Below, piece after piece: positions 37,348-58,594 of a stretch of 64,000 nt of DNA. Source of the stretch: Halogeometricum sp. S1BR25-6 (lineage in GTDB: Archaea; Halobacteriota; Halobacteria; Halobacteriales; Haloferacaceae). The notes below the pieces were generated by a model, which saw only the letters and a program-made list of their open reading frames with translations, did not search any database and was not told the DNA's origin. A program made the translations under genes and the position numbers. The stretch's first letter is position 1. Every line of letters begins with the position of its first letter. The stretch lies in contig NZ_JAMQOP010000005.1 in NCBI RefSeq assembly GCF_031624495.1, positions 62,001-126,000 on the forward strand, read 5' to 3'.

Positions 37348-39201
37348 TTATACCAATCTTAGGTACACCCACTGCGGGATACGGACGATCGGCCGCGCAG
37401 CCCCGTCTGACTCGTGGACGGTCACCGGGGCTGTTGAGTCCCCGTGATCAGTCGTAAGCATGACACCGAACGGTGGTTCTCCGTCGTAAACCTCATCTCC
37501 GTCAAGCGTTCCGTGATAATCGTTAGTTACGTAGTCTCGACGTTTGCGTATGTCCGTCTCGGTCATAGTTTCGTAGCGCGCTGTATCGAGAGAATCGCGC
37601 TCCGACGCTGATGCATCTGAGTTGAGGAACTCGAGGAGTGCGGCGAATCCACCAGGCTGGTTTCGCTGGTCGATGAGGTTGGAAACATTTCGCTGTCGAG
37701 CCCAGTACATCGGTACAGGGCGCCCGTTGAACTTCGGAATGAAGTCAATCTCACCCACGGACCCGTTCCAGAACTTAACCACCCCACGTTTCGGGTCATG
37801 CGCATCGTTCAGCAGGTATGAGAGCCTAACCGTGTGGTCGAAGAGCACCGACTTCGAGAGCGCCGCCTCGACATCGGCGTCCGCGCCGAGCACTCCATTG
37901 AGATCGCGGTTCATGAATGCGTTTGCGATCCCTGGATCTCGGAGATAAACGCGAACTGACCGTGGGCGAAGGTTGTCGTATTCGGGTGACGGAGCGAGGG
38001 CATACAGTTTCGAGAGGACACCGAAGTACTTCCGCCGTAACGTTCGGCGATCGATATCGAACAGGTCGGTGAGCGTCGTGAACTGGACGGACGTACTCGG
38101 ATGCTCCGCAGCGACGAGTGCACAAAGCCGCTCAAGTCCTGCCGGTTCCTCCACGGCACCGAGTTCCGGTCCCCGTTCACGGAGCATGTGGCGAAACGCG
38201 GTCAGGGCCCGCTGTTGGACGGCGTTGATGTCGAGTTCACCGCGACCACGGAGGACAGGGGCGAGCTGATCTCCCGTCAGGACGCCAGCGGCTGCCAGCC
38301 GCAATCCCACGAACCCGCCGATCGTGAGATAATTCGAGAGTTCTCTGCGGAGGTCGGTTCCGGAAACGACTGCGTTCTCGACTTCGGTGTTCAGCCTGTT
38401 TGCTAGTTGCGTTGCATTGCCTGTCGATACCGCCTCGGCGAATGCAGCTCGGGCTTTCGATGCGCTAAATCGGTTATCGGATGCGGTCGTCTCGAGTTCC
38501 CGAAACCGGAAACGGGCGAAATCGGTGAACTTCATCGGCAGCATACTCGAAACCGTTGCCAGCTCGTCAGCATCGGTTGACGTCAGGTCCGCCGTAGCCA
38601 AGGGTGGCTTGAGCTGTGAGTCGGAGACAGCCGTCAGCACGAACCGTCGGGTCGAATTATCCGTCACTAGATCCGCGAGTGTGGTTGCCCAATCCACTCG
38701 CTGGCCACGTCCATTGCCCGGAGTAATCGCACCAAGATCGTCGAGAATGATGTAGCTGGGGGTAGTCTCCGAGCCACTGTGGCAATAGTGCGTCTCAAAG
38801 TGGTCAATGGCGGCGCGGAGCTGGGCCGGCGCCTGGATTTGGATAAGCGGCGTTGCCGAGAGAGGGATATATAGGATGTGTTCAGGCGGGACGACTGCCT
38901 CGTGGGCCTTGTCCCGGAAGCCAGGGTGGCGATAGAACTTCTCGACGAAATCCGGGTCGATAAGGGCAGAGATAAGCTGTCGCAGTAGATCGGTTTTACC
39001 GATCCCGTCCGGGCCTGCAATACCAAAGACGTGGTTTTCATCTGTTATGATCGACTTGTGGAGCCCGTAGAAGTCGCTCCGGAGGGAGACAAACTCGTCA
39101 GTCGCTGCGGCACCGGCTCCTTGTTCCCACCACGGATTGTAGTCTGACAGACGCTGGATCAGGTAGTGGCCTTCCTCGGCGTTGGTGGGATCGAGGGACA
39201 T
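37348..39201 (-). CDS. AAA ATPase with DUF4143-like C-terminal region
   Basis: 617 residues. A degenerate Walker A, FGIAGPDGIGKTDLLRQ near residue 60-75, is followed by SYIILDDLGAI (Walker B-like) and a sensor strand FVLTAVSDSQ. This pattern fits AAA_14/archaeal STAND-like ATPases. In the C-terminal third, VKFWNGSVGEIDFIP and RPVPMYWARQRN match the nuclease-like DUF4143 ending, in which E-I-D-F recalls the (E/D)V(D)F of that family. It is the first gene of the minus-strand operon with McrB and McrC, and its promoter faces the conjugation operon. I infer a sensor or regulatory ATPase. Its function with McrBC is not known to me. Confidence 0.65.
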   Translation of the reverse strand: MSLDPTNAEEGHYLIQRLSDYNPWWEQGAGAAATDEFVSLRSDFYGLHKSIITDENHVFGIAGPDGIGKTDLLRQLISALIDPDFVEKFYRHPGFRDKAHEAVVPPEHILYIPLSATPLIQIQAPAQLRAAIDHFETHYCHSGSETTPSYIILDDLGAITPGNGRGQRVDWATTLADLVTDNSTRRFVLTAVSDSQLKPPLATADLTSTDADELATVSSMLPMKFTDFARFRFRELETTASDNRFSASKARAAFAEAVSTGNATQLANRLNTEVENAVVSGTDLRRELSNYLTIGGFVGLRLAAAGVLTGDQLAPVLRGRGELDINAVQQRALTAFRHMLRERGPELGAVEEPAGLERLCALVAAEHPSTSVQFTTLTDLFDIDRRTLRRKYFGVLSKLYALAPSPEYDNLRPRSVRVYLRDPGIANAFMNRDLNGVLGADADVEAALSKSVLFDHTVRLSYLLNDAHDPKRGVVKFWNGSVGEIDFIPKFNGRPVPMYWARQRNVSNLIDQRNQPGGFAALLEFLNSDASASERDSLDTARYETMTETDIRKRRDYVTNDYHGTLDGDEVYDGEPPFGVMLTTDHGDSTAPVTVHESDGAARPIVRIPQWVYLRLV

Positions 39202-39655: not shown

Positions 39656-40375
39656 ATGTACCGCAGCTCAGCCGGTGCATACCCACCCGCAGGAATGAGA
39701 ACTCGGTCAGCCACCATCAACGGGAACGATGATCCGTACTTCGAGTGGAGCGGCCACAGCAGCGCATCCGCCCTTTATCGCCGTCTGCTCGGTGAGGAGA
39801 TGACGGGTCGCGCTGCTGATTCAGAGAATCACCGTGACCTTCTCACACAAGTCCACACGCGGGAGTACACGGATGTCGAAACCACTACTGAGACCAATCA
39901 TTCCGGCGATCGTGCGGCACTCGCCATATATGCGGAGCACGACCAACTTGCTATGTCACAGGACAGTACTCCATCCCAGACGTCTGAGAATCGTACTGAC
40001 AATCATTACCTACTAACGAGCACCAGTTATAGACAGGCTCTTCTCACCCTTGCACTGGTGAGCCTGTTTGCTGTCCACCCCGCTGCGGCGCAGACAAGCG
40101 CGGTCTGTAGTGCCGACAAGCTCCCGAGTATGATTGAGGGATTCTTCCAGTTAACTACGGGACTCGGTATCGTCGGACTCGCTGTAGTCTGGCAGGCCGA
40201 TTCCCTCATCGAGATGTTCACCCTCAATTCGGAGCAGAAGAAAGGGCTCAAGCGCCACAAGCGCTCGGCGATGAAGTCTGCCGTCATCCTCCTCGTCCTC
40301 GGCCCGCTGTACACGGTCGCCGGATCGATGATGAGTCTTCCACTGGCTGACTGCGTTAATCTCACTCCCTGGTAA
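39656..40375 (+). CDS. Small membrane protein, first gene of the conjugation operon
   Basis: 239 residues from the ATG at 39656; ATG at 39953 would leave 140. Residues 1-100 are soluble and acidic (DDPYFEWSGHSSASALYRRL). After an internal Met come a hydrophobic segment (LLTLALVSLFAVHPAAA, signal-like), then VCSADKLPSMIEGFF, a TM helix (TGLGIVGLAVVWQAD) and another (SAVILLVLGPLYTVAGSM). The C-terminal part resembles small VirB2/TrbC-like pilin or membrane-scaffold subunits in size and layout, but I have no family match. It is 27 bases from the next gene. The long N-terminal part is unusual and could be a fused or misread segment. Confidence 0.55.
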   Translation: MYRSSAGAYPPAGMRTRSATINGNDDPYFEWSGHSSASALYRRLLGEEMTGRAADSENHRDLLTQVHTREYTDVETTTETNHSGDRAALAIYAEHDQLAMSQDSTPSQTSENRTDNHYLLTSTSYRQALLTLALVSLFAVHPAAAQTSAVCSADKLPSMIEGFFQLTTGLGIVGLAVVWQADSLIEMFTLNSEQKKGLKRHKRSAMKSAVILLVLGPLYTVAGSMMSLPLADCVNLTPW

Positions 40376-40402
40376 GCGACTTTACACTCCCACCACGAGC
40401 CC

Positions 40403-42139
40403 ATGAACCAACGAGACCTCTCCGTGCTCATTGCCGCCCTATTCGTGACGAGCCTCGCTACAGGCCTCGTCACAGCTACCCCACCACGACCGGGGACGGA
40501 AGACAATGGGCTCTCTGAGAACGAATCCGCGACGCTGTGGTCTCGCGATACGGATAACTACACGAGTCAAGAGGAGTACCGCCAACGCTACGGTAACGAG
40601 CGAACGGCCATTCACCAGCTCGCAAACGGCAGCGATATCACGTTCAAGCGGCCGCCGGCGACTGCCGCGACGTGGACTCGGAACGATTTCGAGGATCTCG
40701 AAGCCGGAGATGCAGATACGTCCGTGCATCCGCCCCATGCGTCGCTCAAAAACGGAGTCTTCATCGAGGACGCCCATGCGACTGTGTTCGCGATTCAACC
40801 GTCGACTCGAGGCCATCTCGAATCCGGTGACACGCCACTCTACATCGCACCAAATGGGACGATGCGTGGGTTCGTCGATTACCGCGTCCGTCTTCCAAAC
40901 GGGAGTTCTTCCGATAATCGAACTGTCGAGTGGTCGTTGGCAGAGCACGAGATCAAAGAGGTTCGACTGCAGAAAGATGGAGAGACTATTGCGAGGACGG
41001 GGGGGTCGCACACACCAGCAATCGACTATCGGATCGACGACGACTGGAGTGCAACCCTCACGCTTGAAGCAGAGATCGACGTCCGGTTGAAGAAGAGGAT
41101 AGAGACTGACGGAATCAACGGAACTGATGTCGACGTCGTCTACCGTGAGGAGACACGAAACGTCTCTGACTCGATTGACGTCGAGATTTACGACCTCTCT
41201 GCGTACCCCTACTACGCTGAGTATCCCAACGGCGACGCTGGCGTCGCCATCTTCCAGTCTCGGCCGTGGCAAGGATACACCCTTACCGACGAGGGGAACG
41301 CGAGTGTGCGTGGTGTCTGGCGGTTCTACACCGCTCGCAACACCAACTGGGATACGCTCGTCAGATCGAATCAGACCGACAGTGTCGAAGTCGCGTCCGA
41401 TGCAATCCCCGTGTCCGTTCACGCGTATCCATCCCGAATCGGACCGCGTGCTGAACCTATTCGAGACGGCCCGGAGATAATCGACACGTGGGGAACAGAA
41501 CGTCCCTCGCCGAAGAGGACCATCGGAGAGAACGTCACCATCGAGGTCGTCAACCAGTCCTACGAGACGACGTACGGTGTCGCTGTCCGTGCTGAGAACG
41601 TCGACAGAGAGGCGCTTCACGTCGCCGGCATCGTTCGCGGCGTGAATGCATCTATCGTCAAGCCCGACGCCGGGTCTGAACGACAGCTCCGGCGTAGCAA
41701 CCTGACGGTAGAGGTTCTTCAGCAGAACCAGTCGCAGGCGACGCTCCGAATCGAACTACGCGACAACGAGACTGGTGCACCGATCATCCTCAATGACGAT
41801 ACTCGCCGGTATCTAATCGGTGGAAGCGCCCGTAACGGCTCCATCACCATCGCCGATCAGAAAGTTGAGACCAACGCCTCTGGCGTCGCCATCGTAACGG
41901 TCACTGAACCCGGCATCTACACGGCCCGCTATCATCCAGGATCGTGGCTCGGACACAACCCGGCCTACGTGAGTGACACGGCGACTGCCCGGTGGCATCC
42001 ACTCGGATCCATCGACGGCTGGTTCGCGTTCGTCTTCGAGGTCGGCTGGCAGTTCATCCCTTTCTTCGTGATGTTCTACGCGGGGCGCCGTCTCCTCCGA
42101 ATGCTCGGTCCAGCAGACGTCTTCCAACGAAACCCATGA
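40403..42139 (+). CDS. Secreted, membrane-anchored surface protein
   Basis: 578 residues. A signal peptide is visible (LSVLIAALFVTSLATGLVTA, residues 6-25), then a 500-residue extracellular part rich in Asp, Glu, Thr and N-glycosylation sequons (NGS, NGT, NVS, NVT), with Ig-like beta strands. It ends in a membrane helix (FVFEVGWQFIPFFVMFYAG) and a short basic tail. No enzyme motif. As second gene of the operon, it is a candidate surface or mating-contact component. The ATGA overlap at 42136-42139 couples it to the lipoprotein gene. Confidence 0.75.
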   Translation: MNQRDLSVLIAALFVTSLATGLVTATPPRPGTEDNGLSENESATLWSRDTDNYTSQEEYRQRYGNERTAIHQLANGSDITFKRPPATAATWTRNDFEDLEAGDADTSVHPPHASLKNGVFIEDAHATVFAIQPSTRGHLESGDTPLYIAPNGTMRGFVDYRVRLPNGSSSDNRTVEWSLAEHEIKEVRLQKDGETIARTGGSHTPAIDYRIDDDWSATLTLEAEIDVRLKKRIETDGINGTDVDVVYREETRNVSDSIDVEIYDLSAYPYYAEYPNGDAGVAIFQSRPWQGYTLTDEGNASVRGVWRFYTARNTNWDTLVRSNQTDSVEVASDAIPVSVHAYPSRIGPRAEPIRDGPEIIDTWGTERPSPKRTIGENVTIEVVNQSYETTYGVAVRAENVDREALHVAGIVRGVNASIVKPDAGSERQLRRSNLTVEVLQQNQSQATLRIELRDNETGAPIILNDDTRRYLIGGSARNGSITIADQKVETNASGVAIVTVTEPGIYTARYHPGSWLGHNPAYVSDTATARWHPLGSIDGWFAFVFEVGWQFIPFFVMFYAGRRLLRMLGPADVFQRNP

Positions 42140-42972
42140 CCAGAAACAATCCACACATCAGTCGTAGAAACGCCCTCCGAACAGTGGCAGGTGCGACGCT
42201 CGTAAGCGTGGCTGGCTGTCTGAATAGCGGTGGAAGCTCCGGAACACCCGGTAACGGGACAACCGCCTCAGACAGCGAGGGGCCGCTCAATCGAGTCACC
42301 GTCGAAGGGACGATACTCGTCGTCGAGCTCTTGGCAGAAGCCGATGTCGACCAAGTCAACCTCATCCAGCCGAACGAAGAGCTGTTCGGAACGCGTGACG
42401 TGGCTGCAGGGGCCCAGCAGGTCTCGTTCAAGATCGGAACCGCATACGAGCTTGGTGAGTACCGCGTGGTCGCACTGAAAGGCGAGGAGACAGTCGCAGA
42501 GAGTATCGAGGAAATCAGGCCACAGATCGAGATTCGGGAGATCGGGCTGTATCGAAATAACCCAGACAAACCTTGGGATGAGGTCTATGGAGAGAGTCAG
42601 ACTGATAGGAAAAAGAACGGAGAGGCATTTGTTACAGTGGAGAACACAGGCAGTGGTCCAGATGCTATCGTGGAGCTACAATTTACTGGGGACGTCCCCA
42701 ATCCAATTGAGAATCCTAGGGAAGGTGGGCTGTATGAGACTGAACGAGTGGTAATTCCGCCTGGTGAGACGATCGACTTGTTCAGTAGCTCGTTCCCGTT
42801 TGGGACAGAAACAGCGGACGGAATGGGCTGCTCACCAGATGGCAATAACGGCCAATTCACTGTATCTGTTAGAACACAGGTTAGTGGCGATCAGGTCTCG
42901 AAAACCTACGAAGCCCAATACACTGGTTCCAACGACATGACTAATTGCGAGGTTACAATCACGGAGTCCTGA
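42136..42972 (+). CDS. Tat-exported lipoprotein
   Basis: 278 residues from the ATG at 42136. The N-terminus has a twin-arginine signal (SRRNALRTVAG) and lipobox VAGC with Cys28, so the protein is exported folded and anchored by lipid. A Gly/Ser/Thr linker (GGSSGTPGNGTT) leads to two beta-rich domains, the second with ENTGSGPDAIVELQF and ending in a disulfide-type pair (GMGCSPDG, NCEVTI). It is 2 bases from the next gene. Its position suggests an accessory to the mating or secretion complex. I do not know a specific function. Confidence 0.75.
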   Translation: MTRNNPHISRRNALRTVAGATLVSVAGCLNSGGSSGTPGNGTTASDSEGPLNRVTVEGTILVVELLAEADVDQVNLIQPNEELFGTRDVAAGAQQVSFKIGTAYELGEYRVVALKGEETVAESIEEIRPQIEIREIGLYRNNPDKPWDEVYGESQTDRKKNGEAFVTVENTGSGPDAIVELQFTGDVPNPIENPREGGLYETERVVIPPGETIDLFSSSFPFGTETADGMGCSPDGNNGQFTVSVRTQVSGDQVSKTYEAQYTGSNDMTNCEVTITES

Positions 42973-42974
42973 CT

Positions 42975-44036
42975 ATGGTTGATCTGATTGACGTCGTACT
43001 GGAAGGTGCCAAAGCCGTCGTCGATTGGTTTACCGGTCTGTTCATGGACGGGCTCAGATCGGGGTACGAGACATTGACAGAGGCGATGTTCGGGACACCT
43101 ACTCCAAACACGGACGGAGCATTTGTCTTCGGAGATCCGACGAACGCACCTTGGCCAGCAATTCAAGATGCTCTTGTCGGTGGAGAGATTATGCTCATCT
43201 CTCTTCTACTCCTCGTGATGAGTGTTCAAGGGCGGCACACGATTCGAATCTTCAATATCGGAAGTGCCTACGAGGCCCGAAAAACGAAGAAAACTGCATG
43301 GGTCGGTGCCTTCCTTATCATAACTTGGTACTGGGTTGGGTCTCTGGCCCTCTACCTCGTCGATGGGTTCACTATTGCACTGATGCCAGAGCTCTCCTCG
43401 GTCACAGAGGCTATGCTTGGATATTTAGAGGTGTCAATTACAAATCCCGGATTGGCACTGTTGTTTGCCCTTGTTGGTGGTATTTCGATGTGGGTATTGG
43501 AGGCACTATTCTACATCCGGAAGATTCTCATCTATGTGTACTTGTATGGAATGCCCGTTGCCTTCGCTCTCGCCTATGGGAATATTCCAGTAGTCTCTGA
43601 TATCGCTCTAGGATTCAGTAAGCGGTTTGTCCCACTCACAGTTCTCCCACTACCTGCCGCGATAATCCTCAAAGGCTATGACCTGATTTACGCTGGGGAA
43701 ACGCTGACTCCAGGAACGAGATTCCTCAAATATCTGGTCGCAGCATCACTTCCGCTAATTGCTCTCTACGTAACTTGGAAGACGTTCAGATACGCGACGC
43801 CGCTGACCGCCAAGGTCATGGGAGGAGCGACGAAAGGAGCGGCACTCATCGGTGGCGTCGCAGCAGGCGCGTCCGTCGGTGGTGCCGGCGTCGCGACGAC
43901 TGCGGCACGGTGGGGACCAAAAGCTGCTGCTGGTCACGCTCTCGCTCAGAAGGCCGCAGCACGAGCAGAGACTGGTGACGGAGAGAATAGCACGCCGTCG
44001 TACCGGCGGACTGAGAACGACCCCGGAATCCACTAA
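42975..44036 (+). CDS. Polytopic membrane protein, VirB6/TrbL-like
   Basis: 353 residues from the ATG at 42975, chosen over an in-frame upstream codon because it lies two bases after the lipoprotein stop. About six membrane helices are visible, for example EIMLISLLLLVMSVQ, TAWVGAFLIITWYWVGS, LALLFALVGGISMWVLEAL and ILIYVYLYGMPVAFALA, then an Ala/Gly-rich amphipathic C-terminus (GAALIGGVAAGASVGG). The size and topology match VirB6/TrbL inner-membrane channel subunits of type IV secretion. The assignment rests on topology and operon position, two genes before the VirB4-like ATPase. Confidence 0.6.
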   Translation: MVDLIDVVLEGAKAVVDWFTGLFMDGLRSGYETLTEAMFGTPTPNTDGAFVFGDPTNAPWPAIQDALVGGEIMLISLLLLVMSVQGRHTIRIFNIGSAYEARKTKKTAWVGAFLIITWYWVGSLALYLVDGFTIALMPELSSVTEAMLGYLEVSITNPGLALLFALVGGISMWVLEALFYIRKILIYVYLYGMPVAFALAYGNIPVVSDIALGFSKRFVPLTVLPLPAAIILKGYDLIYAGETLTPGTRFLKYLVAASLPLIALYVTWKTFRYATPLTAKVMGGATKGAALIGGVAAGASVGGAGVATTAARWGPKAAAGHALAQKAAARAETGDGENSTPSYRRTENDPGIH

Positions 44037-44038
44037 CA

Positions 44039-45160
44039 ATGTCGATAGATCAAGACGCAGCCGCACGACGCATCATGGACCAGTTCGGCGAAGAGAGTCG
44101 CATCCCGTACCTCAATATTGAGGAGGGAGACGTCGGCCTACTCATCGCCTTCCCGATTATCGGCCTGTTCATCGCAGGCCTCACGGGGATTGAATCACTT
44201 GCCCTTCCGTTTGTCGTGGGCGGATTCGGGTTTGGCGTTGCTGTCATCTACGTCTCTCCCAACCACCTCAATGCGTGGACCTGGACGAAGAGCATCTATC
44301 GGTACGCCAAACGTCCGCAGATTACGTTTAGTGCCCCAGAGGAGGCAAACGAGAACACGAACGAGACAGAGCGAAATGAGGGCGGGCTCGCGAACTACAC
44401 GCCGTTCAAACCGGACGAGCGAACGCAGGACCTCACGAACGTCAAGCGAGCGTGGCCCGGTGCTGGAGCGGTCCAACGAGAAGATGGCACAATGGAAGCG
44501 TTCATCGAAATCGACCCGGGGAACATGGACTTCGCGATGTCCGAAGACTGGGCGCAGCTCCAGGAAGCGGGCGAAGAGTTCGCCAACAAGGAACTCGACT
44601 CGAAGCTCAAGCTCCATGCGACAACTCGGTCATTCCCAGTAGAACAGATCACCGAGACGATAGAAGAGCGACTCAACGACGAAGACGTCACGCAGAACCT
44701 GATCTTCCGGGAACTCCTCGAGGAGTACCGTGAGACCCGCCCCAAAGAGATGCGTGATCGAGGTATCCAGCAGGTGCGATACTATCTCGGTGTCGAAGTC
44801 TCGCCGCTAGAGGTCTACGATCGATTCCGAGACGAAGGGACACCTGCCGAGAAACTGACGCAGTTCCCCGTTATCGGGTTCCTGTTCAACCCGTTCGTGA
44901 CGCGGCGTGAGGACCTGACGGATGTCGAACGTCGGGCACAGATGTTCGAGAAACTCGACAGTCGCGTCAACGACGTCCGCGCCGAGTTCATCCAGCAAGC
45001 GTCCGGGTGGTCCGCTCGTCGGCTCAGTACGGTCGAACTGTTCGTCCTGAACATGGACTTCTGGAACGGACGAGAGCACGACGCCGAGGAGGCTGAGCAC
45101 GCTGTTCGCGAGCAACCGATCGTCGGTCGCTCACGCCGGGAGGATGAGGTCAGTGCGTAA
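44039..45160 (+). CDS. Membrane-anchored T4SS subunit (PrgI/VirB3-like N-terminus)
   Basis: 373 residues. Two adjacent membrane helices (VGLLIAFPIIGLFIAGLTG and ALPFVVGGFGFGVAVIYVS, residues about 32-75) sit where PrgI/VirB3-like proteins carry theirs. A charged cytoplasmic part follows, with WPGAGAVQREDGTMEAFIEI, LHATTRSFPVEQI and VRYYLGVEVSPLEVY, which resembles the N-terminal domain found in VirB4-type ATPases. I infer a split N-terminal part of the VirB4 machine, whose ATPase is the next gene (17-base overlap). Confidence 0.65.
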   Translation: MSIDQDAAARRIMDQFGEESRIPYLNIEEGDVGLLIAFPIIGLFIAGLTGIESLALPFVVGGFGFGVAVIYVSPNHLNAWTWTKSIYRYAKRPQITFSAPEEANENTNETERNEGGLANYTPFKPDERTQDLTNVKRAWPGAGAVQREDGTMEAFIEIDPGNMDFAMSEDWAQLQEAGEEFANKELDSKLKLHATTRSFPVEQITETIEERLNDEDVTQNLIFRELLEEYRETRPKEMRDRGIQQVRYYLGVEVSPLEVYDRFRDEGTPAEKLTQFPVIGFLFNPFVTRREDLTDVERRAQMFEKLDSRVNDVRAEFIQQASGWSARRLSTVELFVLNMDFWNGREHDAEEAEHAVREQPIVGRSRREDEVSA

Positions 45161-47351
45161 CGTCATCCTGCAAGCGAGTGGCGGTATCCTCGGCCAACTC
45201 ACAGAGTGGCTTCTGAACCCGACGTCGCCCGAAGGTGCGGCGATTTACGCCATACTGGTTGTTACCCTCGTGACCGGTGGCAAACACCTCTGGGGCCGGT
45301 ACACCGACGACGACGAACCGGAAGTCGATTTCTCAGATGTCCTCGACGAGAAGACGCTCAAAGAGGGTCACGTAGAGGGCCAACTCCTCGACGACATCTC
45401 CGAATCCCATAAGACAGTGATTGCGCCGGCAGCCATCGAGTGGGAGACACGAGCAGCTCACGTCGGCGAGCAGTGGACGACGACGCTGTACATTGCTGAC
45501 TATGCCGACTACCCGAACGACGGCTACCTGAGCGACCTCTTCGAGTTGACCGACGTCGAGTTCGACCTCACAGCACACATCACACCGAAGAACCAGCAAC
45601 GGGCGCGGAACGAACTGCAGGACATCGCTAACGACCTTCAGGTCGACGCCGATCTTGAACAGAGCGTCCGGAGTGCGTATCTCCAGGAGCGAGCGAACGA
45701 AGCGGCTGCGACCTACAAGGCCGTCGAGAGCGGCGCGAACGTCTTCGATCAAGGGATGTTCATCACGGTTCGCGCCGACGACAAGGACGACCTCAGGGAC
45801 TCAGTCCAGAAGGTCAAGAGTGCGCTCCGCGATGACCCGGCGAACCTCACACCGAAAACCGCGATCTGTCGGCAGGACCTCGCGCTGCAATCGGCAGCGC
45901 CGATCGGAGATAACGAATTTGGCCGCGAGTCGATCGCCCTCGGTGGTGCTATCGGTGCACTCCTCTCGTCACCGCACAACGCGACAATCCTCGAAGAGGG
46001 TGGGGTCGAGTTCGGTATCCACAAGGACAATCAGAGTCCCGTCGTCATCGACCCGTTTGCCCGTGACAGCGGGTACGCAATGTTCACCGTCGGCGATACT
46101 GGCTCCGGGAAATCGTTCGGCTCGAAACAGAATTTCATCCGCTCGATCGAACAGAGCAAGGATCGCATCGGCATTATTCTTGAACCGCTCAACAACTGGG
46201 CGGGTGTCTCCGAAGCACTCGATGCGAAACGTATCACCGTCGGTGGGACGCTCGGCCTGAATCCTCTGGAGATTCGCCAGACACCCGACCACGTCCAGCG
46301 GGCGATGGGTGAGGATGCGAGTCCGTTCAACGAGAAACTCGACGACGCGATGAGCTTCCTGACGAACTTCTTCGCACTGCGCGGTATCTCGCTCGGGGAT
46401 CGTCGGACGACACTCGAACTCGGACTCAAACGCGCCTACATGCGTAATAGTATCTCCGATGATATATCGACGCACAGTAACCCAAGCCCGACGATTCGGG
46501 AGATGATGGACGTCTTCGAGGACATGGTCGACGAACCGGAGGAGTTCGTCGTCCGGTCCGACGAGGAGGCTGGGAAGATCCGTGAGGACGCGACGTGGCT
46601 TCTGGATCAACTACGCCCCTTCGAGGAAGAGGGTCGCCACGCCAACCTCGGGAAGTCCTCGGAGTTCGACATCCGCGACGAGAAGGTCATCTATCTCGAT
46701 CTCGCCCAGCAGGAGGGCAGCGTCGACAGTAGTACAGCGCTGACGATGCAGTTGCTCATCTCGCTCGTATACGAACGAGCGAAAGAGACAGACAAGGAAG
46801 TCGTGTTCGTTATCGACGAGGCGCGGTACATCATGCAGGACGCCGCGAGTCTAGCGTTCCTCGAAACGGTGTTCCGGCACCACCGTCACCACGACCTCTC
46901 GATCCGACTCGTCACCCAGACGGTCGATGAGTTCTTCGAGCACGCTGAGTCCGAGGCCATTCTTGACCAGTGTGCCGTCAAGCAGTTCCATCGCCTGGAT
47001 GGGATGGACGAGGAATGGGCCGAGGAGTTCGGTCTGAATCACGCACAGATGCGCTACGTACAGGACGCGGTGCCCGGCAACGAGGACGCCGGGTTCTCCG
47101 AGGCGCTCGTCGGTGTCGACGGCGAGTGGCGCGGGATCAAGGTGCAGGCAATGTCCAAGGAAAAGCAAGTTATCGATTTCGACCCGGCTGAGCAGACACG
47201 AGAAACACTGCCCGGTGCTGACGAGGAGGCCGTTACTACTGACGTGCAGCAGTTCCGTGAGGAGCTAGAACAGCAGGCCGCAAGCGGAGAGTCACAGGCG
47301 GTCACTGCGAAACCTGATGGTGGTCAGATGGAGGTGGATGAGGATGCGTGA
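45144..47351 (+). CDS. VirB4-like conjugation ATPase
   Basis: 735 residues; the ATG at 45144 lies inside the end of the preceding gene. One helix (GAAIYAILVVTLVTGGK) anchors the N-terminus. The ATPase core has FTVGDTGSGKSFGSKQ (Walker A, near residue 315), VIYLDLAQQEGSVD, VVFVIDEARYIM (Walker B, near 555) and RLVTQTVDEF. This is the VirB4/TraC arrangement that powers pilus assembly and DNA transfer in type IV secretion. It overlaps the next ATPase gene by eight bases. Confidence 0.85.
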   Translation: MRSVRNVILQASGGILGQLTEWLLNPTSPEGAAIYAILVVTLVTGGKHLWGRYTDDDEPEVDFSDVLDEKTLKEGHVEGQLLDDISESHKTVIAPAAIEWETRAAHVGEQWTTTLYIADYADYPNDGYLSDLFELTDVEFDLTAHITPKNQQRARNELQDIANDLQVDADLEQSVRSAYLQERANEAAATYKAVESGANVFDQGMFITVRADDKDDLRDSVQKVKSALRDDPANLTPKTAICRQDLALQSAAPIGDNEFGRESIALGGAIGALLSSPHNATILEEGGVEFGIHKDNQSPVVIDPFARDSGYAMFTVGDTGSGKSFGSKQNFIRSIEQSKDRIGIILEPLNNWAGVSEALDAKRITVGGTLGLNPLEIRQTPDHVQRAMGEDASPFNEKLDDAMSFLTNFFALRGISLGDRRTTLELGLKRAYMRNSISDDISTHSNPSPTIREMMDVFEDMVDEPEEFVVRSDEEAGKIREDATWLLDQLRPFEEEGRHANLGKSSEFDIRDEKVIYLDLAQQEGSVDSSTALTMQLLISLVYERAKETDKEVVFVIDEARYIMQDAASLAFLETVFRHHRHHDLSIRLVTQTVDEFFEHAESEAILDQCAVKQFHRLDGMDEEWAEEFGLNHAQMRYVQDAVPGNEDAGFSEALVGVDGEWRGIKVQAMSKEKQVIDFDPAEQTRETLPGADEEAVTTDVQQFREELEQQAASGESQAVTAKPDGGQMEVDEDA

Positions 47352-50300
47352 GTATCTCCGCGTCACGCCGACGTCCGAACAGCTCGACTCCGCGGGAATC
47401 TCGCGTGTTCTCGCCAGTCTTCACAAGCTCACGAATACGGGAACGGAAAGCCTCACAGAGAAGCTGAACCCGTTCCACAGTGAAACACCGCCCCGGTTCG
47501 AGTTCCTTGCCCTGAGCGATGGACCGGACGAGCCAGTCGAGTTCTACTACGGCGTCGACGAGAACCTCGACACTTTCGAGAAGCGTCTCCGTTCGATCTA
47601 TCCCGAGACGTTCGATATCGAACGCGTTGACGTCGACGTCGCCTCACGGCTCATCCAGCCAGTCGAGTTCACACGATCGGAGTTCATCGACCACTACGAA
47701 ACAGGGCAACTACAGTACGAATTTGGTCCCGAGGAGCAGCACGATCTCGACGGTGAGGACCAGACAGAAACGTCGGAAACCTCCCCCCTCTCTAACGACG
47801 ATGCAACGGTCCAGAGAGCCACGAATCATCTCATCGAGACAGGGAACACCGCACTTGAACTCGCACCACCGAGTGCAGTTCCCGAAGAGGAACCACTGAC
47901 GACACTCGAAAAGCCAACCGAGACGACGGAGGGAACGATACTCGCTCGACCAACCACCGACGCCGTCTCGCCAGTTGGCGTGCGCTGGTCCGGTTCAGCG
48001 ACCCGGAAGAAGGACTGGATGACGTCGCTGACGCCCTTTGCATCCGGTGATGACGACGACGCAGTGACTGCTGTCGACCAGCCCGGCGCGGCGTTGGCCT
48101 CACTCGTCGACTATCTGATGGAGACAGCGTCGCCTGTGGCATTCCAAGTTGTGTTCGAACGGCGGGCACCCTGGCAGGCCGACGCTGAAGTTCGCAGAGA
48201 GGACCTTCTCGATGGACGGGATACCTTCATCCAAGAATTCATTGGCTCATTCTTCGCGGTCGAAGAGCGACAGAACGGACGCGAGGAGAGACAGCTCCCC
48301 GAATCAGTCGCAAAGCGGATCGAATACATCGACGCGAAGAACCACAACCGGTCGTTTACCGCAAACATCCGAGCAGTGGGCGTTCCAGTTGATAGTGCAT
48401 CCCGCGACGAGCTTGCAGCTCAGATGGACTCCCTTCGCCCTGTGTTCGACCCGATAGACGGTCCCTATTACGAAGTCACGGGCGAACGACTCCGTGCTGA
48501 GGGCTTTCGAGAAACAACGAAGGAGAAGAACGCTCGGTCGGCTCTTCGGCAGCTACTTGATCGAGAAATTGCGGTCGGTCGAGGCAAGACCCGACCGGAT
48601 TTCGTCCTCGGTGGGGCGGAACTCGCGAACTTCGTGCTGGTCCCATCGTCTGAGCAGCTCACAGTAGAAGGAACACGTGGGACTCGCGCTGAACAGCAGA
48701 GCCGGAACCCGCTTCCGTGGCCGAATCCAGACCTTGTTCAACAGTTCCAACAAGGGATGGCGATCGGGTATGCACTCGATGAGAACGGAGCACCCCAACC
48801 GAACCCGATCCGGATTCCGCCAAATCTCCTGACGACGCACTACGGCCGGTTTGCATCGACCGGCGGCGGGAAATCGAAGGCGATCATCAACGATGCGCTG
48901 TCCCTTCGAGAGACAACGGGCGGACCTGTCGTCATCGTCGATCGGAAAGGCGATGGGATGTGCGCGAACTACCTTCGCTGCCACTACGAGCACTTCAGTG
49001 GGTTGGACGACGTCTATCAGTTCCGCGTCCCAGAGACGCTCCCTGCGTTCTCTTTCTTCGATATTCGGCCTGCGCTTGAAGCAGGGCGGAACCGCGAAGA
49101 CGCGATTCAGGATAAGGTCGACCATTTCCACGATATCATGGGAATGGTGATGGGACGCGAGATGTACGGACAAGCGTTCGTCGCCAACGAAATCCTCAGC
49201 TACCTCATCAAGGCGCTCTTCGATGAGGAGTACGGGAACGACGTCTTTGGGCTCGACGACCTCTTCGCGGCGGCACTTCAGATGCAACGTGAGCGAACCA
49301 TCCCACCGGTTTCGGCAGACAATACAAACGTCGAGGAGTCGCTCACGCGTCATTTCGCGAAGGACGACCACCAGTTCCAGGTGTCGATGGACGCGGTCGG
49401 CAACCGCCTCGATAAACTCAGAGAAGACGCGCACTTGCGACGGATCTTCAGTCACGTTCCGGAACAGGACGATGCCGGAGAGTACGTCGACAACCGATTC
49501 GACTTCCGCGAGTTCCTCGACGAAGACATCACAATTCTGTTCGATCTCGGTGATCTCCGTCCGGAAGCCCAGCGGGCCATCACACTTCTGCTCTTGAGTA
49601 ACCTCTGGGATGCGGTGCAGGTGCGTCGACGTGACGGGCAAACGGACTACGAGAAGCTCACCAACCTCATCATTGAGGAGGCGGCACCCATCGCCGCAAC
49701 GAAACTCGTTTCCGAGCAGTTGCTTCCCCAAGGTCGGTCGTTCGGTCTAAGTATGGGGCTGGTGATGCAGTTCCCCGGGCAGGTTCGGAATCGAAGCGAA
49801 CGCGCCTACGACGAAGTCCTCAACAATATCAAGACGAAGCTCATCGGGAATATTTCCATCGAGCGCGACCTCGCTGAGTCGTTGGCCCACGAAGACTTGA
49901 GCCCGACTGACCTCCGCAATCGGATCAACACGCTCCCCAGTGGAGAATGGATTGCGCAACTCCCGAGTCCCTCGTTCGGAGAGACGGGCCCAGCCCCGTT
50001 CTCGGTGAAGCCACTGCCGATCGCACCGGGGCATCCAGAAAGCGACGAGCCGCTTTCTGTCGAGCAGGAGGACCACTTCGAGACCGTGGCCCTCCCACGA
50101 CTGTCAGAGCGAACACAGACCCAGTATGGGCTCACCAACAGCCAGGACACAACAGCCTCATCCGAAGAGGAGAGCTGGGGAAGTGAATCCACAGACACGA
50201 CAGCCACGTTGACAGAACAAACCGATTCCCACGATTCGACGCAATCATCGTTCCTTGGACAGATGTCCACAGACGCACAGTCTCACCCAGGGGACGAAAC

Positions 50301-51153
50301 GACGGGTTCTGACGCCACCGATCGACCGTTTGGAAGTGAAACCACAGCAGATCAAGATACAGAGTTGATGAGCGAGACAGACTCGTCAGTACAAACCGAG
50401 AATGGGTCAACTCCGGTGGAAGCGGGTGGAGTAACTGTTCCGGATGAAGAACTCAGACGGCGTGGGCTCAGCCGCGACGATATTCGGTTCCTGAACTGCG
50501 TCCTCGATGTGATGAACGGTGATTCCCCGGAGTACACGCTCTTGGACACGATGACCTCGTTCAGAGAGCAATTCGATGACGTGGATGTTCAGCGGCTCAT
50601 CGATCAGAATCTACTGGAAGAAGCACCGGCCTGCCGACGGAAGTACTACACTGTGCTCCCTGCAGGGCGCGAATTACTCGGTCAAAAGCTTGCGGTCGGG
50701 CCGGGGCAGGGGGACATTGGAGAGAAAACCCCGCACAAAGTCGGTGTCAAACTCCTCAAACGATGGCTCCAGGATCAGGATGGTGTTGCACGCGTCGCGA
50801 CCTACTACGAATACGACGAGGAGACGGTCTTTGACGTCGCTGCCTTCAACGCTGATAGCGAGTTGGTGTGGGTCGGTGAAGCGGAACTACCGAGCAACAA
50901 TAGACACGCCCCAGTTGAGGACTACGACAAGCTAAGCGATGTTGATGCGAGCGCTGTCTGGGCGTTCAACAAGCGAGAGACAGCAGTAGAGGTTCTCGAC
51001 CGACTTGCTGAGGCCGACCGGATCGAAAGCAGCGTGAGCGGGCGTGCAGCCCGATCGTTCGCAGATATCCGAGATGCAGTCGAGAGCTTCGATGCAGCGG
51101 GCCTAACGACGCTTCGGGGTTTCCATACCCTTGATGGAGAATTCAATTCATGA
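47344..51153 (+). CDS. TraD/VirD4- or HerA-like ATPase with extra C-terminal domains
   Basis: 1269 residues from the ATG at 47344, eight bases inside the previous gene (ATG at 47338 also possible). Residues 1-500 are non-enzymatic with VirB4-like character. The P-loop RFASTGGGKSKAIIND is near 503, followed by VVIVDRKGDG, ITILFDLGDLR and LIIEEAAPIA (Walker B-like), as in TraD-type coupling proteins. A Ser/Thr-rich disordered linker (about 900-1030) leads to a winged-helix region (LRRRGLSRDDIRFL) and an end domain with VATYYEYDEETVFDVAAF and ELVWVGEAEL. That end shows D...E-x-E spacing and could be a PD-(D/E)XK-like fold. It couples by ATGA to the primase gene. Confidence 0.75.
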   Translation: MREYLRVTPTSEQLDSAGISRVLASLHKLTNTGTESLTEKLNPFHSETPPRFEFLALSDGPDEPVEFYYGVDENLDTFEKRLRSIYPETFDIERVDVDVASRLIQPVEFTRSEFIDHYETGQLQYEFGPEEQHDLDGEDQTETSETSPLSNDDATVQRATNHLIETGNTALELAPPSAVPEEEPLTTLEKPTETTEGTILARPTTDAVSPVGVRWSGSATRKKDWMTSLTPFASGDDDDAVTAVDQPGAALASLVDYLMETASPVAFQVVFERRAPWQADAEVRREDLLDGRDTFIQEFIGSFFAVEERQNGREERQLPESVAKRIEYIDAKNHNRSFTANIRAVGVPVDSASRDELAAQMDSLRPVFDPIDGPYYEVTGERLRAEGFRETTKEKNARSALRQLLDREIAVGRGKTRPDFVLGGAELANFVLVPSSEQLTVEGTRGTRAEQQSRNPLPWPNPDLVQQFQQGMAIGYALDENGAPQPNPIRIPPNLLTTHYGRFASTGGGKSKAIINDALSLRETTGGPVVIVDRKGDGMCANYLRCHYEHFSGLDDVYQFRVPETLPAFSFFDIRPALEAGRNREDAIQDKVDHFHDIMGMVMGREMYGQAFVANEILSYLIKALFDEEYGNDVFGLDDLFAAALQMQRERTIPPVSADNTNVEESLTRHFAKDDHQFQVSMDAVGNRLDKLREDAHLRRIFSHVPEQDDAGEYVDNRFDFREFLDEDITILFDLGDLRPEAQRAITLLLLSNLWDAVQVRRRDGQTDYEKLTNLIIEEAAPIAATKLVSEQLLPQGRSFGLSMGLVMQFPGQVRNRSERAYDEVLNNIKTKLIGNISIERDLAESLAHEDLSPTDLRNRINTLPSGEWIAQLPSPSFGETGPAPFSVKPLPIAPGHPESDEPLSVEQEDHFETVALPRLSERTQTQYGLTNSQDTTASSEEESWGSESTDTTATLTEQTDSHDSTQSSFLGQMSTDAQSHPGDETTGSDATDRPFGSETTADQDTELMSETDSSVQTENGSTPVEAGGVTVPDEELRRRGLSRDDIRFLNCVLDVMNGDSPEYTLLDTMTSFREQFDDVDVQRLIDQNLLEEAPACRRKYYTVLPAGRELLGQKLAVGPGQGDIGEKTPHKVGVKLLKRWLQDQDGVARVATYYEYDEETVFDVAAFNADSELVWVGEAELPSNNRHAPVEDYDKLSDVDASAVWAFNKRETAVEVLDRLAEADRIESSVSGRAARSFADIRDAVESFDAAGLTTLRGFHTLDGEFNS

Positions 51154-52034
51154 CGTGGCGACAGGCTACTCGCGAGGAAATCTACGCCTACTACGCCGAC
51201 GAGTTTCCCTCGTACGTCAATCAGATGCCATCGTTCATCACACCGGCTGGCCCGAAACAGTACGCCCTCGCGTTTCGAGAGTCTCATCCCGTGCGGAAAA
51301 ATGAGGTCCCTGCAAAGGACTTCATTCGCCGGGATACACGACAGACGAACGCATCGGGTGAACATACTCACTGCGAATTCGATGAGTTCGAGGACATCGT
51401 GGAGTTCATTCGCCACCCGGCCCGGAATGACCCTCTTGAACGAAGTACGTTCGCGCTCGCTGACCCTGCTCTTCTCGATAAGCCCGATCCGTGCCCCGAC
51501 GCCGTCTACTACGCGCTTGATCACTGGGAGCGCCCGTGGATACTCCTCGTGGATATCGACGCGAAAACGATTGCTCGGAAGCGGGCAGAACGAACGGTAG
51601 CGGACGACGTCGATAATCGAGATACCGAGGATTTCCTCGATGCAGCCGGAATTCGAGCAGCGTCACCAACCGGATATCCCTACGCATTCGAGGACGTCGA
51701 CCGTGCTATCGAGTACGGGTTCGAGGTCCGAGATATTTTCGAGGATGATTTCGACGCTGAGGAGACGATGGTGATGTACAGCGGACAGGGAGTCCACGTC
51801 TACCTGCTTGACACCGACTTGGCCCATCGGTACGACACCAAGAGTCGTGAGGTGCTGAACGACCTCTTGTTGGATACCTATGGCATTCCAATTGATCCGG
51901 TGGTGACCGCAGACCGTCGTCGGGTCGCCCGGCTCCCCTACTCATTACACGCTGACGTCTGCAGTATCGTCCAGCCAATCGACAGCCCGAACTTCGATAT
52001 TCGGACGGCGACACCTGAATTCATCGACTCATGA
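51150..52034 (+). CDS. PriS-like primase catalytic subunit (AEP superfamily)
   Basis: 294 residues. Motif I is ILLVDIDAK (two catalytic Asp) near residue 134. Motif II is MVMYSGQGVHVYLLD near 206, with Ser, Gly and His as in archaeo-eukaryotic primases, and motif III-type ADRRRVARLPYSLH is near 255. These primases make RNA or DNA primers. Its ATG overlaps the coupling-ATPase stop, and its own stop overlaps the next start (ATGA at 52031-52034). It is shorter than cellular PriS and probably primes element or transferred single-stranded DNA. Confidence 0.85.
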   Translation: MTWRQATREEIYAYYADEFPSYVNQMPSFITPAGPKQYALAFRESHPVRKNEVPAKDFIRRDTRQTNASGEHTHCEFDEFEDIVEFIRHPARNDPLERSTFALADPALLDKPDPCPDAVYYALDHWERPWILLVDIDAKTIARKRAERTVADDVDNRDTEDFLDAAGIRAASPTGYPYAFEDVDRAIEYGFEVRDIFEDDFDAEETMVMYSGQGVHVYLLDTDLAHRYDTKSREVLNDLLLDTYGIPIDPVVTADRRRVARLPYSLHADVCSIVQPIDSPNFDIRTATPEFIDS

Positions 52035-53557
52035 GTACTCCTACCCCAGTTGACGACGAGCGCACCGCTTACCAAGTTGCTGCCCTCCCACTCGAGTATG
52101 GGTCGACACGCATCAACCAGCTGTTTACGCGTGGCTACAACCGTTACATCGTCGACGGCGAAGACCAGCCCGACGATCTGTTGAACGATCTCGAACGGTT
52201 CGGAACGGCCGCGTTCAAAGAGGACGTCCGGACCAACGCCGCTGACGAGCCCTTCGTCGACGAGCCAGGGACGCTCGCCGTGCTCGCCACACTAACTGCC
52301 ATCTGCGTCAAGGCACACCCGAAATTCGAGCACGCCCCACCGCGGAAGATCCAAATCCTCTACAACATTCGAGAGCTGTACGTCAACAATCTTGCGTCAC
52401 TCCTCCGAGAATTCGGCGATGCCACCCTCCAGCAAGATATCGCTGAGGTGCTGTACGCGAAGGACACCAGCGGGGAGAGTCCCCACCCCGGTCGTGTCTG
52501 TACAGGCATTACGGAGATGCCTGAGTTCGGAGGTGGGTTGTACCTCGAAATCCCGATGGTTGCTGCCTCCCGGAACTGTCTCGTCTACGACGCGGACAGA
52601 CGTGATGCAGGAACGGAGGATGACAGAGAGATCCTGACGCGAGTAAAGGATAACCGGCTGTACGTTCCTGCCGGTGACTTCGATGAGAAGTATCACGCCT
52701 ATGCGGAGAGGGCATTCAAGAAGCTTCTTCGCGTCCAAGAGGACGGCCTCTCCGAAGACCAGCAGGTGTGGTTGACGACGAACGAGTCAGCAATCACTGA
52801 TCGGATCAACCGTTTCATGGAAGCAGGACACCACGAACGTATTTGGCGAAACTGGGATCAAGGCGAACGAACGATTCGTGTCCTACGGCGGGCGATCAAC
52901 GAGTCAGCCGACGATGTCGTCCAGCAAGATGAGTTCCATACGGCGAAAGAACTCTACAGTGCAGTCACAGCGTACGATACAGAAAACAACTGGGAGGCCT
53001 CGATTACGGACTGGATTTCGAGCCCGAGTAGCCTAGCGAAGACGCTTGCAAACCATCAGTCACATTCGGCGGTCACCATCAAGCGGGATGGGCGCGTCAA
53101 TCAGTATCGCATTGGCCACCCAGGCAGCGGATCGACGCAAATCGATGTCGACGCTATCGAGGACCTGTTTGAGTTGCCCTGCATGGCAAACATGGAGGAA
53201 CGCCTTCACGAGAAGAAACCCGTCCGGAAGGACCTCTACAACTTCGCTCGGATGGTGATGTGGTTGCCGCAATATCAGAACAGCAACCTTGACGAAATCG
53301 TCGCGGACCTCAAAGACGTCTTCTCGCGCTGGCCATGGTACGACGAGCAGGTCACGGACTACCAAATTCGCTATGAATTCACGAATACGATCGACGGGAA
53401 TACGCCGCTCCCAATGAACTGTGACAACGACGATATGCAGCGCTACTGTATCGGGAAGGACCAGTGTCCCTACTCGATCTGGGGGAGTCTCCCCTTCCCG
53501 GATGAGATGTACAACCAAGTGGATGAACACGCCGCTGGTCCCACCGAGCAATTCTGA
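52031..53557 (+). CDS. PriL-like primase-associated protein with Fe-S type C-terminus
   Basis: 508 residues. The C-terminus reads LPCMANMEERLHEKKPV, then RKDLYNFARMVMWLPQYQ, IVADLKDVFSRW, YQIRYEF and finally MNCDNDDMQRYC and KDQCPYSIWGSL. Four Cys with this order and the R-x-LxxFLxxxG-like helix match the [4Fe-4S] domain of archaeal and eukaryotic PriL. The N-terminal 350 residues resemble no family I can name; they may bind the catalytic subunit or the DNA end. It is the last gene of the nine-gene operon and is coupled to the PriS-like gene. Confidence 0.72.
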   Translation: MSTPTPVDDERTAYQVAALPLEYGSTRINQLFTRGYNRYIVDGEDQPDDLLNDLERFGTAAFKEDVRTNAADEPFVDEPGTLAVLATLTAICVKAHPKFEHAPPRKIQILYNIRELYVNNLASLLREFGDATLQQDIAEVLYAKDTSGESPHPGRVCTGITEMPEFGGGLYLEIPMVAASRNCLVYDADRRDAGTEDDREILTRVKDNRLYVPAGDFDEKYHAYAERAFKKLLRVQEDGLSEDQQVWLTTNESAITDRINRFMEAGHHERIWRNWDQGERTIRVLRRAINESADDVVQQDEFHTAKELYSAVTAYDTENNWEASITDWISSPSSLAKTLANHQSHSAVTIKRDGRVNQYRIGHPGSGSTQIDVDAIEDLFELPCMANMEERLHEKKPVRKDLYNFARMVMWLPQYQNSNLDEIVADLKDVFSRWPWYDEQVTDYQIRYEFTNTIDGNTPLPMNCDNDDMQRYCIGKDQCPYSIWGSLPFPDEMYNQVDEHAAGPTEQF

Positions 53558-54459: not shown

Positions 54460-54584
54460 TACGTGAAGCATGGACCTCCCCAGATTAGACAATTGGGGTG
54501 GATTCGCAGTGTCAGTGCATGCCGGCGACGGGAGCGTTTGTCGGCGCCGGAACGCGCGAGGCGCGTCTCCGAGCGTGCCCACGC

Positions 54585-54884
54585 ATGAATCCTATGACTG
54601 GCCCACGTATACTCGACGACACTGCAGACGATCACGAGCGATTTGAAACCGAACTCGTCGCACAGGACCGAGATGTCGCCCGGGTGTCGACGGCAGACAT
54701 CGAAGAGACGACCGCGCGACGACTCGTCAGTGACCTTGTCAACGACGGTATCGTGACAGCAGTCGCCGAGCAGCGAATACTGGTTCACGAACCGAGTGGC
54801 AAGGCGTTTGACTCGATTCGACAGCTTGCTGTCTTCCATCGTGGCTGGTCGGCTGGCCAGGATGCCGACGAGGAGGGCGAATGA
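54585..54884 (+). CDS. Small winged-helix-like unknown protein
   Basis: 99 residues from the ATG at 54585 (ATG at 54594 also possible). It reads LVAQDRDVARVSTADI, ETTARRLVSDLVNDGIVTAV and AEQRILVHEPSGKAF, a helix-turn-helix followed by a beta wing, then a variable tail. It is acidic, in keeping with halophiles. The next gene starts inside its end in another frame (54862). The molecular role is unknown. Confidence 0.6.
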   Translation: MNPMTGPRILDDTADDHERFETELVAQDRDVARVSTADIEETTARRLVSDLVNDGIVTAVAEQRILVHEPSGKAFDSIRQLAVFHRGWSAGQDADEEGE

Positions 54885-57658: not shown

Positions 57659-57697
57659 TGTCGGGCGCGTGAGCGCCTTCAGGTCTTAGTGAGACCA

Positions 57698-58594
57698 ATG
57701 TCAAGTAAGAACGTAACCAGTCAAGTAGTTTCGGTCGATGAACAGGCATTCGAGAACGCGGACGAAGCGGCGGTCGACGAGGACGGCTTCGAGGTCGTCG
57801 ACGAGACGCCGGCGTTCCAGGCGACGGTGCAGATGGAGACGCAGGCAAAAGTGGATGCAAACCACCCGGACGGGATGGTTGAGACCAGTGATGAGCGGAT
57901 CTACGGCGCAACGCTCGAACAGGAAGAGCGTATTCGAGCGCGGGAGGCCGAACTGGAGCGCATCAGTGCCAAAGCAGAATTGGGGACGCAGGAAGGACGG
58001 GAGAGACGGACGCGAGATATCGCGACGAAGCGGAGTGCTAAGCGGCGTGCTGAATTCCAGAAGCGGGCCGCGAGCGTGGACCCATGGGCCGACCCGGAGC
58101 GAGATGATCCTCGTGCAGAACTTTCGCAGGAGCAGTTGGCGGCGGTGAACACACAGTCGATGCGGCTGGCGGAGAAGGTGGAGGGTTGGTCGCGAGCGGC
58201 GATTGGGCGGCGACTGGGTGAAGCCGTAGCCGGTGGAAAAGACCTGATGAGTGCGGTCATCGAGGTGTTCGAGGAATTGGAGACGGCGCCGGGACAGGTG
58301 GTTCCGATTGGGAAGCTCGAGGAGGTCAATCGCAAGGAGGTAAGCATCGAAGGGCATGTCGAGACGCTGTGGGATAGTGACTCGCCAGCCATCGCTCAAG
58401 TTGGGCTGATCGCAGACGACAGTGGGAAAACGAAGGTAACGATCTGGGAGAAGTCGAATGCCCCGTGGGTCGAGGAAGGTGAGCAGGTGCGCATTCACGG
58501 AGCGGCACGGAACTGGTACGAGGGACGCGTCTCACTGGCCGTCACTGGGTGGTCGACCCTGCATTTCCCTGAGCGCGGTCGGTGGTGGGAGTAG
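57698..58594 (+). CDS. OB-fold RPA-like ssDNA-binding protein
   Basis: 298 residues from the ATG at 57698 (a GTG nine bases earlier is in frame but less likely). The N-terminal 150 residues are acidic and helical (EQEERIRAREAELERISAKA). Then IGRRLGEAVAGGKDLMSAVI and a C-terminal OB fold (VSIEGHVETLWDSD, IAQVGLIADDSGKTKVTIW, VRIHGAARNWYEGRVSLAV) as in RPA. It binds single-stranded DNA in replication or repair and, from memory, is common on haloarchaeal plasmids. A T9 run just after the gene is the likely terminator. Confidence 0.85.
   Translation: MSSKNVTSQVVSVDEQAFENADEAAVDEDGFEVVDETPAFQATVQMETQAKVDANHPDGMVETSDERIYGATLEQEERIRAREAELERISAKAELGTQEGRERRTRDIATKRSAKRRAEFQKRAASVDPWADPERDDPRAELSQEQLAAVNTQSMRLAEKVEGWSRAAIGRRLGEAVAGGKDLMSAVIEVFEELETAPGQVVPIGKLEEVNRKEVSIEGHVETLWDSDSPAIAQVGLIADDSGKTKVTIWEKSNAPWVEEGEQVRIHGAARNWYEGRVSLAVTGWSTLHFPERGRWWE

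Follow-up and report, generated by a model that had tools for sequence, protein, structure and literature searches.

A primase pair linked to the coupling ATPase of a type IV secretion-like operon in haloarchaea

Introduction

TraC of plasmid RP4 and Sog of ColIb are primases encoded with conjugative DNA-processing genes, and both are proposed to prime the transferred strand. We analyzed a 64,000-nucleotide stretch of the genome of Halogeometricum sp. S1BR25-6 (hereafter the window) in which a nine-gene, same-strand operon (g1 to g9, window positions 39656-53557, forward strand; Table 1) joins genes of a type IV secretion system (T4SS) to two genes, g8 and g9, for PriS-like and PriL-like primase proteins. 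RSF1010, too, shows such a coupling (RepB'/MobA; PMC5862659). The locus shares with these three bacterial systems a primase encoded with DNA-processing genes. The bacterial primases work together with a relaxase and do not form PriS/PriL-like pairs, whereas the operon studied here has a two-gene pair and a coupling ATPase (g7) with a nuclease-like tail, and no relaxase was found.

Archaeal systems provide partial parallels. PolpTN2, of the Thermococcus plasmid pTN2, is also a mobile-element primase with PriS-like and PriL-like parts, but it is one fused protein rather than two genes of a T4SS operon, and the available part of PMC5862659 states no link to such an operon. The integrated fusexin elements of haloarchaea likewise carry genes for VirB4 and a coupling ATPase (HerA, TraG/VirD4), but they are integrated and carry fsx1, and the word primase is absent from the main text of PMC9259645. 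The crenarchaeal Ced and Ted systems resemble the locus in using VirB2/VirB6/VirB4-type proteins for DNA transfer without a relaxase, but they are domesticated, HerA-NurA is proposed to make their single-stranded DNA (ssDNA), and the word primase is absent from PMC9905601. In archaeal conjugative elements, plasmids included, no relaxase is recognized (PMC9905601). The protein encoded by g9 belongs to NCBIfam NF038197, a family whose name records an association with primase only, not T4SS linkage or kinship with PriL. Haloarchaeal VirB4/HerA/TraG/VirD4 elements (PMC9259645), mobile-element primases (PMC5862659) and the g9 family name are thus already published. No report of a coupling ATPase-primase cassette, of its exchange with PrimPol or of the nuclease-like tail was found in the open-access PMC papers searched.

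The evidence below supports the statement that the primase belongs to the DNA-processing cassette of a conjugation-type system. The cassette bears on the question of how archaeal conjugative elements make and complete the transferred strand. Plasmids of Haloferax, Halorubrum and Halobacterium, all of them open to genetic manipulation, carry it, so this question could be addressed by single-gene deletions.

Operon structure and gene junctions

The window is positions 62001-126000 of contig C5 (352,747 bases), one of nine contigs in a 4.5 Mb genome; C5 resembles a large plasmid. Haloarchaea were used for every comparison, and among them Halogeometricum pallidum is the nearest named relative for g7-g9. 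A VirB4-family ATPase, a VirB6-type channel protein and a VirD4/HerA-type coupling ATPase are all encoded, as expected of a T4SS.

The genes are tightly packed. Gaps separate g1 from g2 (27 bases), g3 from g4 and g4 from g5 (2 bases each), and overlaps join g2 to g3 (4 bases, ATGA), g5 to g6 (17 bases) and g6 to g7 (8 bases, with the g7 start at 47344, which we prefer because it is retained by most relatives). The primase pair is joined on through two 4-base ATGA overlaps, one at g7/g8 and one at g8/g9. An earlier note on this DNA, made from the letters of the window, had described nine genes with gaps of at most 27 bases and overlaps of 4-17 bases that join T4SS-like genes to PriS- and PriL-like genes; the open reading frame calls and junction sequences match this description, and the family and profile matches of g4, g6, g7, g8 and g9 agree with it. 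ATGA or GTGA overlaps occur between g7 and g8 in 46 of 67 relatives and between g8 and g9 in 44 of them; in a second set of 25 loci, which overlaps the first, the counts are 24 and 21. Because both overlaps are conserved in relatives, the arrangement goes beyond chance.

Linkage of the primase pair to the coupling ATPase

All 67 PriS-like matches in GTDB species genomes have g7 upstream and g9 downstream, and a VirB4-like gene is present in 60 of these loci (five of the other seven run into the locus start). Among 145 haloarchaeal genomes, matches to the g9 family were found in 39 and to the VirB6 family in 71. Of 40 near-complete g9 genes in this set, 32 follow a same-strand VirB6 gene at a distance of 7.7-9.6 kb, and 37 are within 6 kb of a coupling ATPase. 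The three exceptions comprise one gene near a contig end, one with an internal stop and one divergent orphan. Linkage persists down to 29-43% identity, and the pair is found behind VirB4 proteins that are only 24-27% identical. The link between primase pair and transfer genes looks selected rather than incidental. It is clade-wide, and the same genome holds three further copies of the system; both points are absent from the earlier note.

A broken copy is present on pNRC200 of Halobacterium NRC-1 (L199). It retains g5-g8, with g4 truncated and insertion sequence (IS) elements nearby; g1-g3 and g9 were not found in the stretch examined.

The PriS-like gene was also identified on 78 plasmids in PLSDB (from Halobacterium, Natrinema, Haladaptatus, Haloarcula and others), all of which are typed as non-mobilizable. 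This breadth bears on the alternative that the operon is a domesticated machine for DNA exchange, similar to Ced or Ted and working in import or export, in which the primase would fill in single-stranded chromosomal DNA after its import and the locus is not a self-transmissible element. Ced and Ted do show that archaeal homologues of VirB4, VirB6 and VirB2 can serve DNA import (PMC9905601, PMC11868833), and g7 has a weak match to CedD. However, an operon carried by plasmids of many genera, patchily distributed (39 of 145 genomes) and present in four T4SS copies in one genome has the features expected of mobile elements, and we regard domestication as improbable.

Exchange with PrimPol and recombination of the cassette

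Four T4SS operons were identified in this genome. Contig C7 encodes a second complete nine-gene operon. In a sister copy on contig C6, g1-g7 are followed by a PrimPol with an NrS-1-type helix-bundle domain (L016:17026-18291, C6:93026-94288) that replaces g8-g9; in the other C6 copy, g7 is cut at residue 131. This replacement is common and exclusive. The 79 loci with a strong VirB6 match include 32 with the pair, 31 with the PrimPol of this type and none with both. Within 6 kb of the 111 coupling ATPases detected, the pair is present in 37 cases, PrimPol in 44 and both in none, and 69 of the 73 coupling ATPases closest to g7 have one or the other. By a rough estimate from genome size, a random site would lie that close to a primase with a chance of about 1 in 100. 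PrimPol-type coupling ATPases have a tail that is comparable by sequence, with a conserved KPD...IEVE motif and a Pox_D5-like domain at the end.

On a VirB4 tree, pair and PrimPol have switched repeatedly, with 12 changes for three states, and the starred branches force at least six for the pair. The exact numbers of switches are approximate, since this is a quick tree with SH-aLRT support only and with long branches (L121, L122, L129 and L130).

Overlapping genes are common in prokaryotic operons. ATGA overlaps might then reflect genomic hitchhiking in compact archaeal plasmids, where they are frequent, with a pair functionally unrelated to transfer. We give this explanation very little credence, as linkage is kept down to the low identities given above and mutually exclusive alternatives occupy the same slot.

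Comparison of two close relatives locates a recombination edge. Between the window and the C7 sister copy, g2, g5, g6 and residues 1-950 of g7 are 89-97% identical (90-97% for the g7 residues) and g4 is 82% identical, whereas the g7 tail is 72-78% and g8-g9 are 75-78% identical. Between the window and H. pallidum (L132) the pattern is reversed: the g7 tail is 97-99% and g8-g9 are 95-97% identical, and residues 1-950 of g7 are 87-94% identical. As identity shifts at an edge inside g7 in both comparisons, the C-terminal domain of g7 travelled with g8 and g9 as one cassette. The primase pair has its closest partner in the coupling ATPase, whose C-terminal domain is predicted to be a nuclease, a point that goes beyond the earlier note. 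That note had proposed that the primase is produced together with the transfer complex, which is now well supported by the conserved overlaps, the near-exclusive linkage to the coupling ATPase, the replacement in sister operons and the co-recombination with the g7 C-terminal domain.

The main rival explanation is that the pair is the vegetative replication primase of the element, standing in one operon with the transfer genes simply because all of them are parts of the element backbone. Primases of mobile elements are usually interpreted as replication enzymes (PMC5862659). We nevertheless consider this explanation rather unlikely, because the complete pair is almost never found without a coupling ATPase, and because both the exchange of primase types and the recombination edge connect the primase with the g7 tail and not with a replication initiator. 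In addition, pNRC200 is maintained with g9 lost, and the pair is therefore not needed for plasmid upkeep there, although this is not decisive given the other replication origins and genes of that plasmid (PMC1906834).

The C-terminal domain of the coupling ATPase

The matches of g7 to HerA and CedD are weak, but the P-loop region is conserved. The conserved part of its tail covers approximately residues 1037-1278 and, in an alignment of 56 sequences, contains an invariant H, D, E-x-E and D-Y-x-K. In a confident AlphaFold2 model of the tail (pLDDT 90.4), an alpha-beta-beta-beta-alpha-beta core comes after a winged helix. The elements of this core are in the order H109-E130-E141-E154-H169-E183, and D144, E159, E161 and K176 are invariant (residues 1173, 1188, 1190 and 1205 of g7 when numbered from 47317). 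Core and invariant residues together are predicted to have the layout of PD-(D/E)XK nucleases. Weak library matches with this fold include the Pyrococcus abyssi repair endonuclease 2vld, EndoMS, YaeQ, EcoT38I and CRISPR ancillary nuclease 2; other weak PDB matches are to MarR winged helices. Foldseek alone was rejected as a means of identifying the tail, as the RIO2 kinase and MarR matches cover mostly the winged helix and not the putative catalytic part. A Pfam scan of the tail alone gave no match. Replic_Relax (PF13814), considered as an identity for the tail, had no match in the genome, but the control for this family was also undetected.

The earlier note had seen no relaxase in the window. 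This holds for the whole 4.5 Mb genome with respect to the relaxase family PF03432 and to TrwC (PF08751), both of which are absent while their positive controls were detected, in keeping with what is published on archaeal conjugative plasmids (PMC9905601). Because its tail has a nuclease-like layout, g7 is a candidate for the missing strand-processing enzyme. A more far-reaching and distinctly tentative idea is a form of relaxase-free conjugation, in which the haloarchaeal coupling ATPase would itself carry the strand-processing nuclease, as a winged helix plus PD-(D/E)XK-like tail. This ATPase would be passed on in a single exchangeable cassette together with a dedicated primase of eukaryotic type, whose two subunits would finish the transferred strand.

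The primase pair

The profile of g8 is collinear with Pyrococcus PriS (1g71, E=9.8e-9) and with 9f26. The catalytic acids (D135, D137 and D249) are all kept, with SGxGxH between them and in order, and these motifs are invariant across eight diverse members, save for S/T at the first position of SGxGxH. Missing are about 100 residues that Pyrococcus PriS has between motif II and the third Asp. We conclude that g8 is a shortened relative of PriS that lacks the full architecture of the cellular protein and is not the host subunit; host PriS is encoded at C2:222760, and host PriL is likewise encoded elsewhere in the genome.

The g9 protein is a full-length member of NF038197 (score 852 versus a cut-off of 100). 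Four cysteines invariant in 41 sequences (C384, C464, C473 and C479) correspond to the four Fe-S cysteines of the PriL C-terminal domain, as putative cluster ligands. A profile-profile comparison of the C-terminal region with haloarchaeal PriL (hhalign E=3.3e-4) aligns the first three of these, over DLF-x-PCM and a C-x8-C motif. PriL chains head the Foldseek list (best 2dla), but with E values of 0.25-1 and a low-confidence model (pLDDT 63); the AlphaFold model was set aside as too weak to prove a PriL fold, and the profile comparison was used instead.

Relatives of the pair were absent from INPHARED phages and from IMG/VR, and there was no convincing PHROG; a virus origin of the pair was rejected.

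Very divergent relatives of g9 (approximately 29% identity) were identified at L123 (G001:C2) and L124 (G010:C2). At L124 no coupling ATPase was detected; its g9 relative has a weak match to the PriL family PF04104 (E=2.3e-4) and is a useful bridge between the families. In L107, L116 and L170 (the latter two possibly the same strain) a 1386-base insertion is present at the same place between g8 and g9.

Proposed function

We consider it probable, from gene content and conservation, that the operon serves the transfer of a haloarchaeal plasmid of conjugative type, with g7-g8-g9 as its DNA-processing cassette and the primase priming the transferred or the replacement strand. Such priming is the most economical function for the pair, and a likeness of function to the bacterial conjugative primases is plausible. 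The products of g1-g6 would build the pilus, the channel and the VirB4 motor. The winged helix of g7 would bind the element DNA, and the PD-(D/E)XK-like domain may nick or cleave it, replacing a relaxase, after which g7 would drive one of the strands through the channel. Primers would be placed on this single strand by the PriS/PriL-like pair, whose production would keep pace with that of g7 through translational coupling; the priming could take place in the recipient, serve replacement synthesis in the donor, or both. From these primers a host polymerase would complete the duplex, and an OB-fold protein encoded nearby may cover the single strand. Self-transfer, translational coupling, nicking by g7 and the place and time of priming are inferred here from the genomic evidence. 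If correct, this proposal would also account for the non-mobilizable label that plasmid-typing software gives to these plasmids.

Several points weigh against the proposal. Neighbors in an operon can be co-regulated without acting jointly. No primase was detected within 6 kb of 30 of the 111 coupling ATPases, and 50 of 94 PrimPol matches are not beside a coupling ATPase; as this is about half of its matches, the PrimPol family also has other settings. The g7 tail resembles known structures weakly (all Foldseek E values at 0.001 or above, Z approximately 7), and its motif is E-x-E, not E-x-K. Because pNRC200 has other replication origins, its loss of g9 says little against a replicative role.

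A role of the primase in defense or counter-defense, acting on incoming ssDNA, is possible, without specific support here, and we rate it as highly improbable. Its precedent is the PrimPol of the Thermus integrative element ICETh2, deletion of which left element replication unaffected and raised transformation 100-1000 fold (PMC7693054), and the window is rich in defense-like genes. The Thermus barrier was not seen in conjugation-like mating (PMC7693054), however, the pair is tied to a coupling ATPase in the haloarchaeal operons, and the defense-like genes of the window almost never recur beside the operon elsewhere.

Channel and motor genes

In nearly all relatives, too, the operon begins with the candidate pilin gene g1. 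Its match to Pfam TrbC/VIRB2 (E=0.022) is weaker than the cut-off, and its exact start is unsure, the alignment of many relatives beginning only at about residue 95. Neither Pfam nor PDB profile searches gave a match for g2, and its identification as a fusexin or another known fold was rejected; g5 also has no Pfam or PDB match.

Table 1. Genes and domains of the operon and a neighboring gene (window positions)
Feature	Position	Strand	Evidence
g1, VirB2/TrbC-like pilin candidate	39656..40375	+	Signal-like segment followed by two hydrophobic segments; uncertain start
g2, exported, C-terminally membrane-anchored protein, 578 aa	40403..42139	+	Conserved in operon
g3, lipoprotein-like, fast-evolving	42136..42972	+	VAGCLN lipobox; identity to relatives 31-87%
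g4, VirB6/TrbL-like membrane channel protein	42975..44036	+	Pfam PF19590 TrbL_3 E=1e-134
g5, 373 aa, N-terminal membrane segment, VirB4 companion	44039..45160	+	Strongly conserved, 51-96% identity across operons
g6, VirB4-type T4SS ATPase	45144..47351	+	NCBIfam NF045971 E=6.8e-34, NF045975 E=5e-38; Pfam CagE_TrbE_VirB 2e-5
g7, HerA/VirD4-like coupling ATPase	47344..51153	+	Pfam DUF87 HerA domain E=1.7e-4; NCBIfam HerA and CedD matches
g7 C-terminal domain, winged helix and predicted PD-(D/E)XK-like fold, candidate DNA-processing nuclease	50425..51150	+	Alignment, AlphaFold2, weak PDB matches
g8, PriS-like archaeo-eukaryotic primase catalytic subunit	51150..52034	+	Pfam PF01896 5.5e-6; TIGR00335 1.1e-8
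g9, PriL-like subunit	52031..53557	+	NCBIfam NF038197 'primase-associated protein' 9.3e-257
OB-fold ssDNA-binding-like protein	57689..58594	+	Pfam OB-fold E=2.5e-4

Neighboring genes

The OB-fold protein is encoded near 29 of 88 primase-pair loci and 12 of 40 other T4SS loci; in many relatives its gene lies a few kb downstream of the operon. A small unannotated protein (window 54498-54884) is encoded near 45 of the 88 and 13 of the 40, respectively. Defense-like genes form a dense island at 7291-13446 and 24963-39201, which includes a DrmD/HmaA-like helicase, an HNH gene, two HmaB-like methylases, an HmaC/DUF499-like ATPase and an AAA gene with restriction-type matches. An ApeA-like HEPN abortive-infection gene (Pfam HEPN_Apea, ApeA_NTD1) is located at 62624-63850. 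Two overlapping small genes at 55344-56140 (one ribbon-helix-helix-like, the other encoding 155 aa) are toxin-antitoxin-like, and close copies of this gene pair adjoin other T4SS operons (L168, L076 and L085).

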